Below are positions 1 through 19,955 of a stretch of DNA of 64,000 bases, in pieces. Within the stretch, counting starts at the first letter, position 1; each line of letters begins with the position of its first letter. The position numbers and the translations under genes were made by a program. This stretch comes from Nitrosomonas sp. sh817 (GTDB lineage Bacteria > Pseudomonadota > Gammaproteobacteria > Burkholderiales > Nitrosomonadaceae), in the NCBI RefSeq assembly GCF_030908545.1, contig NZ_CP133083.1, positions 1,178,001-1,242,000 on the forward strand, written 5' to 3'. Below the pieces are notes generated by a model, which saw nothing but the letters and a program-made list of their open reading frames with translations, did no database searches and was not told where the DNA came from.

Positions 1-2
1 TG

Positions 3-1043
3 CCGCTGATGCAAGACAATCTGCCGCAACTGGTCGAACACCTGACCAAACCGCAGCCGCAGAAATTGTTGCCGCGATTGCCGCAGACTTTGCCGCTGCT
101 GCTGCGGCAACTGGAACAATTCCTCGGTACCAACGGTTTACGGCTGCTGTGCGCCGTAGCAATCTATCCAAAACCGCATTGGTCATTGACGCAGGCGCTC
201 GATTATTTGCTGTTTGGTGGTTTGAATACGCCAACACTGACCGCCGATCCACCGCAACGGCGCGAGCAGCGGCTGGCGCGTTTGAGCCGATTGCCGTGGT
301 TGACGCATGCCTACTTGCCGGATTGGTTGCGCGAATTGCTGTTGCTCGGTATGGATCGCCATGAGCGTGTGCAAGTGACGGAAGTGTGGCAGCGCTTGTT
401 CCATCAGCACACCGGCCGGGACAGTCCGCAATCGCTCAGTCTCGAAGTGAGAAGCCCGTCCAAGCTGCAACTGCAAGTCAAGTTCGACGACTGGCGCGCC
501 ATTTCCAAGGATACTGCGATCAATGATCCGATTTTCGCCAATATCCTGCGCGGCGGCAAGCTGGGGTTGCTCGATTTCCGCATCCCGCAAGCCCTGGCCA
601 AGCTGCTGCCGCAAAACAATCAATCGCTGTTATTACGTCCGGGAGTGATCGCCTTGCTGTGGGCATTGCTCGCGAGCGGAACGCTCACTGCGGCATGGCA
701 TTACGCCGGTCAGCACGCATTCATCGACTATCAGCGCAACCAACAGATGCAGCACAATATGCAGTGGCCGGTAACGCTCAGCCATCACTCGGATACGCAA
801 GCGTTGATGACGGCATTGCAAACTAAACAACCACCGGCTTTAGCCGGTGGTTGTTTAGTGCTATTGCTGGCGATGGCCGTTTGTCCAACGATTTTTGCGC
901 AAAGCAAACCGGCGGAAGAACCTGCCACAACAGCAATCGAGATCAAATCGCGCGGCAAGCTGACCGCCGAGAAAAAAAACAGAGTCAGGCATTGGCGCAA
1001 ACCTGCCGTACCGAAGCTGGGCAAGCGCCAACGATGGTGGTGA
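3..1043 (+). CDS. N-terminal/middle part of a membrane-associated multidomain protein (5' end outside window)
   Basis: The frame is open from the left edge (the first full codon starts at base 3), so the gene begins upstream; the Met at base 9 is only the first internal ATG. The visible part is rich in Leu, Arg and Gln and resembles the helical region that follows the NTPase module in large multidomain proteins; I recognise no named domain. A hydrophobic stretch at about residues 209-230 (counted from base 9) looks like a membrane segment, and a second one follows the palindrome at 822-859 (residues near 285-297). The frame stops at 1041-1043, but the formylglycine-enzyme-like domain continues in the -1 frame. 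The join is at an A8 tract (972-979) that forms the heptamer A AAA AAC (974-980) in the zero frame. It could be a broken gene, a sequencing error or programmed -1 frameshifting. Confidence 0.6.
   Translation, partial: PLMQDNLPQLVEHLTKPQPQKLLPRLPQTLPLLLRQLEQFLGTNGLRLLCAVAIYPKPHWSLTQALDYLLFGGLNTPTLTADPPQRREQRLARLSRLPWLTHAYLPDWLRELLLLGMDRHERVQVTEVWQRLFHQHTGRDSPQSLSLEVRSPSKLQLQVKFDDWRAISKDTAINDPIFANILRGGKLGLLDFRIPQALAKLLPQNNQSLLLRPGVIALLWALLASGTLTAAWHYAGQHAFIDYQRNQQMQHNMQWPVTLSHHSDTQALMTALQTKQPPALAGGCLVLLLAMAVCPTIFAQSKPAEEPATTAIEIKSRGKLTAEKKNRVRHWRKPAVPKLGKRQRWW
822..859. repeat. 38-bp perfect palindrome related to the IS200-like element end hairpins
   Basis: Two 17-base arms (822-838 and 843-859) flank a TTTA loop. 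The core, including GCCGGTGGTTGTTTAG, is the same as the right-end hairpin of the IS200-like elements at 15168 and 19925. It lies inside a coding frame and adds about 13 codons in frame. This looks like a REP-type solo hairpin spread by the IS200-like transposase, or a relic of such an element. Confidence 0.75.
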
Positions 1044-1831
1044 TTAAGCCGGGCCAATTTCAGATGGGATCAGCAGACGGTGATGCCGATGAGCAGCCGG
1101 TGCATGCGGTGACAATCCCGAAACCATTTGCCATCAGCCGTTGCGAGATTACCGTCGGGCAATTCCGGCAGTTTGTTGAGGATGCACACTACCAAACCAC
1201 GGCTGAAAAAAGCGGCAAAGGCTGTAATATTTGGAATGTTGAGAGAAAAGAAGCAGAACAATTGCCGGATCGAAATTGGAAAAATCCTGGTTTCAAGCAA
1301 AGCGATGATCATCCGGTGGTGTGCGTGTCATGGGACGATGCGCAAGCGTATGTGAAATGGCTGTCGCATCGCACCGGCGCAGCGTATCGCTTGCCAACGG
1401 AGGCCGAATGGGAATACGCCACCGCAACAGCACGCTATTATCAAGATGACCTGCAGTGCGATTACGCCAATGGTTTAGGTCAGGAAGGAAAGTCTATTGC
1501 CGATTCTGTCTGGGTATTGGCGGAGTGTTCCGATGACCATGTTTACACCGCGCCGGTGGCAAGTTACGCCGAAAATCATTTCGGGTTATTCGACATGCTG
1601 GGTAACGTCTGGGAATGGAAGCAGGACTGTTGGCATGGCAATTACAACAACGGACCGGGTGACGGTTCGGCATGGCTGGAAAAAGACAGCGGCGATTGTG
1701 GCCGCCGGGTGGTTCGCGGCGGTTCGTGGATCATCTTCAGGCCTCAGCTCGTGCGGTCGGCTAACCGGGTCAGGAACGGCGCCGGTGAGGCCTACAGCTA
1801 CCAGGGTTTTCGGATCGCCAGGGATTTTTGA
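851..1831 (+). CDS. Formylglycine-generating-enzyme/sulfatase-modifying-factor family domain; putative DGR variable protein
   Basis: The domain starts near base 1018 and runs to the stop at 1829-1831. Family marks are MVVIKPGQFQMGS near its start, RLPTEAEWEYA in the middle, GNVWEW, then RVVRGGSW and GFRIAR at the end. This is the C-type-lectin-like fold (FGE-sulfatase, PF03781) that many DGR target proteins use as a variable ligand-binding module. The last 25 codons before the GFR motif contain 13 NNC codons (ATC, TTC, CTC, GTC, GGC, GCC, TAC, AGC, AAC), the pattern expected after adenine mutagenesis of AAC codons. The annotated start at 851 lies inside the palindrome and is probably not real. 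The domain is more likely the C-terminus of the preceding frame, joined by a -1 shift at the A8 tract. No enzymatic role should be assumed; members of this type usually lack FGE activity. Confidence 0.8.
   Translation: MFSAIAGDGRLSNDFCAKQTGGRTCHNSNRDQIARQADRREKKQSQALAQTCRTEAGQAPTMVVIKPGQFQMGSADGDADEQPVHAVTIPKPFAISRCEITVGQFRQFVEDAHYQTTAEKSGKGCNIWNVERKEAEQLPDRNWKNPGFKQSDDHPVVCVSWDDAQAYVKWLSHRTGAAYRLPTEAEWEYATATARYYQDDLQCDYANGLGQEGKSIADSVWVLAECSDDHVYTAPVASYAENHFGLFDMLGNVWEWKQDCWHGNYNNGPGDGSAWLEKDSGDCGRRVVRGGSWIIFRPQLVRSANRVRNGAGEAYSYQGFRIARDF
1727..1822 (+). other. Candidate DGR variable region (VR) in the C-terminal lectin-like domain
   Basis: From the Trp codon of GGSW (1727-1729) to the GFRIAR codons, every codon ending in C can be derived from AAC by substitution of A only: ATC ATC TTC, CTC, AAC, GTC, AAC, GGC, GCC, GCC, TAC, AGC, TAC. 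The interspersed codons (AGG, CCT, CAG, CGG, TCG, GCT, GGT) end in G or T and fit conserved positions. The GC-containing tail after 1804 would be the initiation of mutagenic homology. No template repeat and no reverse transcriptase are visible in the window. Confidence 0.6.
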
Positions 1832-1865
1832 TCTTTGTTCTTTGTGCTTTTGTTCTTTGCGGGGT

Positions 1866-1890
1866 GCAGGGGCGTAGCCCCTGCGGTTTT
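1866..1890. terminator. GC-rich hairpin plus T-tract after the lectin-domain gene
   Basis: Perfect 8-bp stem GCAGGGGC (1866-1873) / GCCCCTGC (1877-1884) with a GTA loop, followed by GGTTTTTT. It can act as a Rho-independent terminator for the gene ending at 1831. Stable short-loop hairpins just downstream of the variable region are also a known DGR feature that helps target recognition, so it may serve both roles. It lies about 44 bp past the putative VR end, further than in the best-studied DGR. Confidence 0.6.
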
Positions 1891-10625: not shown

Positions 10626-11079
10626 GGATTATAGACATGGAAGTCATACGGTTTATCAGATTGAATATCATTTTGTATGGGTAACGAAGTATAGATATAA
10701 GATTCTGAAGGGAGAAGTAGCAGAACGAGTACGAGAGTTGGTTCGTCAGACGTGTGAAGCATTTGAAATGAGAATTGTACAGGGTGTAGTAAGTAAGGAT
10801 CATGTGCATATTCTGGTGAGTTGTCCGCCGGAGATGGCTCCGAGTGAGATCATGAGGCGGCTAAAAGGACGAACATCGAGCTATCTGTTTGAAGAATTTC
10901 CTCACTTGAAGAAGCGGTACTGGGGAAGGCATTTTTGGGCGCGAGGGTATTTTTGCGTGACAGTAGGTCAGATGACAGAAGAGATGATCAAACAATACTT
11001 GGAGCATCATTTTGAGCCAAATCCAAACGACAATTTTACGTTATTATGTAGCAACAACACAAAGCTGCTATTAGCTTGA
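10624..11079 (+). pseudogene. tnpA: IS200-type Y1 (HUH) transposase tnpA, 3' end replaced by transposon insertion
   Basis: With the start at the ATG behind AGGAGG (10624) it follows copy 2 almost residue for residue: the HUH pair lies in DHVHILVS and the catalytic Tyr in IKQYLEHHF. After PNDNF the frame runs into the transposon end and gains 11 foreign residues (TLLCSNNTKLLLA region) instead of KMEPE. The catalytic residues remain, so the product might still be active, but the right end of the element is now 4 kb away. It differs from copy 2 at a few residues (for example RHGS instead of RYGS). Confidence 0.85.
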
Positions 11080-14906: not shown

Positions 14907-15252
14907 GATAAATAAGAACATTATATTCTTCCAGGTAATTAGCTGTAGCATTTTCATATTCTTTATAAGACTCCATCTATTACTCCTAATAGACGTTATC
15001 TTAACTATAAATATATATTTCTAATGCGACATTTTCCGCTTTGTGCGGCTGCTACATAATGCCGCAATTTTAAAATGGAGCCGGAATAAGACGCGTCGTT
15101 TAGTCGACGCGTATCCGGACTTTCAGTCCGTAACTCAAACCCACCGGCTTTAGCCGGTGGTTGTTTAGTCGATAACCTTGTTATTGTTGATTGCAGTGAC
15201 GTCCCTGCTTGCAAAACGGCTTGCACAGCATCGTGAACGTACCGAGAAGCAT

Positions 15253-19394: not shown

Positions 19395-19417
19395 ATGCCA
19401 CACAGGAGGTGTGGCAT
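19395..19417 (+). promoter_or_regulatory. RBS-sequestering hairpin at the tnpA start (copy 2)
   Basis: Identical to the one at 10603: 9-bp arms around an AGGAG loop, with the ATG at 19416 at the base of the stem. Confidence 0.75.
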
Positions 19418-19847
19418 GGATTATAGATATGGAAGTCATACGGTTTATCAGATTGAATATCATTTTGTATGGGTAACGAAGTATAGATATAAGATTCTGA
19501 AGGGAGAAGTAGCAGAACGAGTACGAGAGTTGGTTCGTCAGACGTGTGAAGCATTTGAAATCGGGATTGTACAGGGTGTAGTAAGTAAGGATCATGTGCA
19601 TATTCTGGTGAGTTGTCCGCCGGAGATGGCTCCGAGTGAGATCATGAGGCGGCTAAAAGGACGAACATCGAGCTATCTGTTTGAAGAATTTCCTCACTTG
19701 AAGAAGCGGTACTGGGGAAGGCATTTTTGGGCGCGAGGGTATTTCTGCGTGACAGTAGGTCAGATGACAGAAGAGATGATCAAACAATACTTGGAGCATC
19801 ATTTTGAGCCAAATCCAAACGACAATTTTAAAATGGAGCCGGAATAA
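19416..19847 (+). CDS. tnpA: IS200-type Y1 (HUH) transposase
   Basis: 143 residues from the ATG behind AGGAGG; the frame is open upstream to 19395, but that part is the regulatory hairpin. HUH residues lie in KDHVHILVSCPPE, the catalytic Tyr in MIKQYLEHHFEPN. The length and motifs are those of TnpA of IS200/IS605, which moves single-stranded DNA through end hairpins. It is intact, ending KMEPE inside the right end of the element. Confidence 0.95.
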   Translation: MDYRYGSHTVYQIEYHFVWVTKYRYKILKGEVAERVRELVRQTCEAFEIGIVQGVVSKDHVHILVSCPPEMAPSEIMRRLKGRTSSYLFEEFPHLKKRYWGRHFWARGYFCVTVGQMTEEMIKQYLEHHFEPNPNDNFKMEPE

Positions 19848-19955
19848 GACGCGTCGTTTAGTCGACGCGTATCCGGACTTTCAGTCCGTACTCAAACCCA
19901 CCGGCTTTAGCCGGTGGTTGTTTAGTTTTTGAGGAGCGCTACCGGTCACCACCCG

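Follow-up and report, generated by a model that had tools for sequence, protein, structure and literature searches.

A probable orphan DGR variable region in a broken target fusion of Nitrosomonas sp. sh817, and core-less DGR targets in related genomes

Nitrosomonas is among the genera named as having multiple diversity-generating retroelements (DGRs), and trans diversification and disrupted loci have been reported for DGRs of MoxR-type conflict systems (PMC10907252, as far as the accessible part of that paper goes). As described there, these systems of multicellular bacteria share with the locus studied here an FGE/C-type-lectin (CLec) target with a large N-terminal part, a MoxR-like AAA+ gene directly upstream and effector genes such as TIR nearby; unlike them, the genome studied here has no detectable core or template repeat (TR), and its two targets look joined where the core would have been. 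In Nanoarchaeota, DGR fragments consisting of adenine-mutagenised variable regions (VRs) without a reverse transcriptase (RT) gene have been read as fossils or as remotely diversified (PMC4372165). Adenine mutagenesis at a site lacking an RT gene is what they have in common with our VR, whereas, compared with the available portion of that account, here a remote core was searched for and not found in a genome scored as complete, and sister species show the core cassette. A strongly mutated RT near distal targets is also in print (PMC3521204, excerpt), and one survey says that remote targets would escape it (PMC8144416, excerpt). DGR fossils have already been published, and the VR described here adds one with an unusually clear loss series; literature searches, mostly at the level of listings, returned no description of such a series in Nitrosomonas.

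The window analysed is a stretch of 64,000 nt of Nitrosomonas sp. sh817 (G000:C1:1178001-1242000, coordinates within it being used below), a genome of two contigs with a completeness score of 100%. Its genes may fit the FGS-bearing iSTAND MoxR systems, as outlined in the accessible part of PMC7159879, with vWA unrecognised. With the iSTAND MoxR-vWA ternary system carrying an FGS domain, the locus shares an upstream TIR-iSTAND gene (TIR_2 and iSTAND by Pfam in G000), an AAA+ gene (AAA_5 in the homologue of the sister genome G045) and an FGE domain joined to an extensive N-terminal portion. It differs from that description in that target 1 of G045 has no Pfam match to vWA and in that the AAA+ gene and the target of the window genome are frame-broken. 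The G045 gene at the position of the TIR-iSTAND gene matches no Pfam family.

The VR (1703–1821, plus strand), delimited by homology to the TR of sister species, is 3'-terminal in a ligand-binding target of CLec/FGE type. The open frame concerned (851–1831, plus strand) holds the FGE-sulfatase domain, of C-type-lectin fold, of what we call target 2 (Pfam match 1025–1822, E 2.1e-63); it terminates in GGSWIIFRPQLVRSANRVRNGAGEAYSYQGFRIARDF, and the TTG at 851 is a mechanical start only. The adenine-derived codons of the VR are confined to 1730–1801, and a recount over 1730–1804 reproduced the pattern given in the preliminary description, with 13 of 25 codons being NNC and the other 12 ending in G or T. 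Taken alone, the NNC count is modest (p=0.0067 against a background of 27% third-position C in 851–1720), and to that extent an ordinary FGE-sulfatase sequence, with an NNC run due to chance or codon bias, could be considered. Alignment to a TR makes this explanation barely credible. The lineage's own TR is missing, so A-specificity was scored against TRs of relatives; the window VR, one codon longer than these TRs, was aligned to that of a related genome's locus (L042) with one gap codon placed by hand. All 12 codons facing AAC, AAT or ACC end in C (p=1.4e-7); they account for 12 of the 13 NNC codons, the remaining one, GCC, being GCC in the TR as well. The VR differs from the TR mainly at TR adenines (17 of 29 changed, against 5 of 61 non-A sites), and the same positions vary in homologues, some of them beside real TRs and RTs. 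The window VR is a genuine DGR product. Its extra codon and the five non-A changes imply either that the lost TR was somewhat different or that the VR has drifted.

The view that this is a DGR VR in an FGE/C-type-lectin target is supported by the TRs, RTs and Avd genes of sister species. The VR or its 3' element was matched in 27 of the 85 genus genomes searched, and a core cassette in the order AAA+, target 1, Avd, RT, TR and target 2 was found in G045, G061, G056, G066 and G022. The RTs of these five are 68–100% identical to the G045 query; RT matches at E<=1e-5 occur in 28 of the 85 genomes, reaching up to about 52% identity beyond the five. Avd matches (E<=0.001) were obtained in 8 of the 85, at 76–100% identity in the five core genomes. 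Pfam and PHROGs assign the G045 proteins to bAvd or Avd, RVT_1 and AAA_5, and all five TRs encode GSWNNNPQNLRSANRNRNNTD(E/N)(A/S)NNN. Across a set of 33 VRs, 55–56% of A sites and 1.8–3.8% of non-A sites are changed: 140/252 and 9/513, respectively, in nine VRs of core-bearing genomes, and 369/672 and 52/1368 in 24 VRs of core-less genomes. The set comprises 90-nt VRs that fit the search expression in part of the loci; seven VRs of other length, including that of the window, were omitted, matches from core-less genomes that were read later lie outside it, and five positions at which just some of the TRs have A were excluded. Given the similar rate of change at A sites in core-less VRs, the A rule holds without a detected core too, with slightly more non-A change. 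Two VRs of core-bearing genomes are frame-shifted, at 89 nt in G061 (L042:5123-5211) and 91 nt in G045 (L045:5498-5588), through homing errors or assembly errors. G045 also contains the TR of a second-clade DGR (GSWNNNGRNCRSANRNHNDPSNRNNN) beside a broken RT (L176; G045:C2:22400-23500).

In the window, the FGE domain is preceded by the N-terminal part of another target. This part (1–821, plus strand), recognised by homology to the 1046-aa target 1 of G045, belongs to an ORF starting about 1.2 kb before the window (G000:C1:1176788). The match to target 1 covers 600–822 and that to target 2 runs from about 945 to 1893, and the joint between them is occupied by a perfect palindrome with 18-bp arms and a TT loop (822–859). 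Judged by eye, 856–971 (plus strand) is probably what remains of the signal peptide and linker of target 2; its frame differs from that of the FGE body, the two parting near an A8 run at 972–979. The AAA+ gene upstream of the fusion shows several frame changes. Since the signal-peptide and FGE frames differ and the AAA+ gene changes frame, the locus looks decayed, as far as can be read from its sequence, and some of the frame breaks could be artefacts of assembly, given the involvement of the A8 run. Hairpins of the family to which the palindrome belongs occupy 29 distinct sites in G000 (31 rows, including two palindromic duplicates). Most of these (25 of 29) stand 95–151 bp behind a Y1-transposase match, the joint hairpin being among the other four; Y1-transposase matches number 31 in G000, some of them inside the window. 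IS200-type hairpins and Y1 transposase genes are located in the window at 822–859, 10648–11007, 15137–15164 and 19395–19921. Directly behind the target, two small minus-strand genes (1905–2551) look by eye like a pair of PIN-domain toxin and AbrB-type antitoxin.

The preliminary description had expected the template either before the first base of the window or at another genomic location, which whole-genome searches did not bear out. No TR was detected in G000 by DNA searches with the window VR, a guessed template and a sister TR, and queries with the DGR RT protein (E<=1e-5) and Avd (E<=0.001) gave no match, so that none of the three components of a complete DGR was found in this genome. A live template within G000 was rejected on the outcome of the TR searches. 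Two observations had been named in advance as speaking against a DGR: absence of the template and DGR RT from the genome, which is what we found, and homologues keeping the same residues, which is not, as the homologues vary mainly at TR-adenine positions. The single RVT_1 match in G000 (C1:164262) is typed by PADLOC as a retron II-A RT; for this reason, and in view of the failure to find a TR, we rejected it as the mutator. This type II-A retron (G000:C1:163000-165074; L009:5001-7075) consists of an NDT-like gene followed by a 502-aa RT, according to PADLOC. When the same core was sought on mobile elements, the 5000 best plasmid records and phages held only RTs of less than 60% identity, and nothing was found in viral contigs.

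A second VR is present in G000 (C1:455343-455432), 0.72 Mb from that of the window. Its target is an open frame for a 405-aa TIR-FGE fusion (G000:C1:454233-455450; L010:3234-4451) with the VR reading GSWSNAPQNLRSAHRFWSYLDVSNIFQGFR, and this gene is a second orphan DGR target in G000. The counterparts of this locus in the same-species genome G035 and in an N. ureae MAG (L084) have different VRs. The two VR places of G000 are 94% identical over 90 nt, corresponding to window 1801–1890 (31 coding and 59 non-coding bases). The second VR obeys the A rule more weakly, with changes at 15/28 A vs 13/57 non-A sites, the worst of the 33 VRs. The presence of two VRs with the same 3' element, together with the trans diversification known from Thiohalocapsa PB-PSB1 (PMC10907252, in the part accessible), would suit a window VR that is still active and diversified in trans, by an RT and TR located at another genomic site or on a plasmid that escaped sampling. 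We regard this as very improbable, as neither a TR nor a DGR RT was found in two contigs scored as 100% complete and the target gene is frame-broken. Most likely, the window VR has been orphaned within a broken fusion gene and is not a live VR with a hidden template.

Downstream of the window VR there is an inverted repeat, as expected of a DGR target hairpin: a GC-rich hairpin with an 8-bp stem and a GTA loop (1866–1884; GCAGGGGC-GTA-GCCCCTGC). With up to two mismatches allowed, G000 contains two copies of it, one behind each VR, and we rejected a generic dispersed terminator on these grounds. By position, it is a DGR-type target hairpin, which may also act as a terminator. The BPP-1 target hairpin/cruciform, as presented in the available part of PMC3240598, is likewise an inverted repeat just downstream of the VR; in our set, unlike that case, the stem begins 37–61 nt past the GFR codons and is not universal. 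In the 110 nt that follow the VR, 19 of 41 VRs have a perfect stem of 7 bp or more, compared with 19 of 2050 shuffled stretches; the other 22, among them all VRs of G017 and G045, lack one. Two of the five TRs have a different inverted repeat at the corresponding place. A CTTTGYR motif stands behind 39 of the 41 VRs and behind none of the five TRs.

Taken together, we favour, with a probability of roughly 0.83, a VR written by a DGR whose core and TR were subsequently lost by deletion, with fusion of target 1 to target 2. The ancestral locus would have consisted of the AAA+ gene and two targets flanking Avd-RT-TR; an error-prone RT would have copied the TR, randomising adenines, and the mutated cDNA would have replaced the 3' end of the FGE/CLec-fold target gene. 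One deletion, beginning within target 1 and reaching as far as the start of target 2, would then have removed VR1, Avd, RT and TR, leaving the fusion with an IS200-type hairpin at its joint, an element that may have had a part in the deletion. The AAA+ gene and the fusion would also have gained frame-breaking changes. Given the loss of core and TR and the frame breaks, the VR is probably frozen, in a probable pseudogene whose protein has presumably ceased to function. A single deletion is the simplest reading of the joint, although recombination with a foreign locus could also have produced the fusion and would look similar. Comparison with G035 bears on the latter: its downstream flank is 95.6% identical to that of the window genome over 6.2 kb, whereas the AAA+ genes have a p-distance of 0.34 and target 1 is likewise far more diverged than the flank, so the locus has been exchanged or is hypervariable. 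The syntenic target 1 of G035 (L050:3503-6751) is a continuous 1082-aa frame in which the FGE core and VR appear scrambled by eye. This divergence, and the core-less target pairs known elsewhere in the genus, would agree with acquisition of the fusion from another species, through horizontal transfer or recombination, when it had already been diversified and lacked a core. We consider such an acquisition unlikely, as none of the 14 other loci compared shows this joint and the family of the joint hairpin is abundant in G000.

Absence of the close core is common in the genus, applying to 22 of the 27 VR-matching genomes, five of which have one or two contigs (G000, G017, G026, G027 and G067). 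A Pfam RVT_1 search detected RTs in 12 of the 22 and none in the other 10, to which the single-contig G017 and G026 belong; among the RTs detected, retron typing covers that of G000 alone. Weak matches to the DGR RT (25–40% identity) occur in G018, G046, G038 and G027. Other retroelements, perhaps of other DGR clades, are thus present in some core-less genomes. A TR query was run against 24 genomes, the 22 core-less ones and, as positive controls, G045 and G061; only the two controls matched past the VR-homologous part. In the core-less set, 18 of 22 genomes matched, at 37 places and in the VR-homologous part only, and four had no match. Overlooked TRs among these 37 places were ruled out, as none is, as protein, AAC-rich like a TR; the ten matches scored have 0–5 Asn codons, vs 11 in the G045 TR and 11 in the second-clade G045 TR. 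Targets 1 and 2 adjoin without Avd-RT-TR in G084, G017, G074, G057 and G059, with joints that differ among these five save one common to G084 and G017. Core loss by recombination between VR1 and the TR was unsupported, the sequences behind core-less VR1s being, by eye, of VR type and not of TR type.

In place of the 1,659 nt containing the core in G045, G084 and G017 have a common 147-nt filler (86.5% identical), whose match in the other 10 loci tested is limited to an internal repeat of about 31 nt. This shared scar indicates that the core was lost before the two lineages diverged, barring an exchange of the locus. The two target-1 VRs differ at 19/29 TR-A and 5/61 other sites and the two target-2 VRs at 14/29 and 1/61, with a difference of about 15% over 900 nt upstream. 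Because the 528 pairs among the 33 VRs share a mean of 10.4 of 29 A sites, the target-1 VRs of G084 and G017 are as dissimilar as any two of the set. The target-1 VR of G057 is identical to the G045 TR at 61/61 non-A sites, including 27/27 third positions, in a gene where 42.5% of third positions differ across the 200 codons upstream of the VR. The target-2 VR of G017 is also identical at 61/61 non-A sites, and six further VRs tested against the G045 TR have 1–3 non-A differences each; third-position values for target 1 of G084, a frame-shifted gene, are invalid and were left out. This suggests that a remote or transient core rewrote these VRs until recently, and in G084 and G017 diversification seems to have continued after local core loss. 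It is also possible that no recent rewriting took place and that the patterns in G084, G017 and G057 have other causes: the MAGs have gaps (completeness 89% and contamination 7% for G057, about 150 contigs for G084), the TRs are strongly conserved across species, and VRs may have recombined between lineages. We therefore propose only tentatively, and with more doubt than confidence, that across the genus targets repeatedly outlive their mutator, cores being deleted independently at the same locus while receptors persist and a core that is transient or remote can go on rewriting their VRs for some time. If true, DGRs would be intermittent, separable mutators that 'diversify, then freeze'.

Within a single genus, a series can be seen in which a DGR that retains its core is followed by targets without one and finally by a gene that is fused and broken. 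The pace at which cores are lost, the persistence of receptors once frozen and diversification in trans become testable by comparison of strains. An A-specific VR in a genome does not imply that the mutator is present, and many related species likewise keep the diversified genes only.
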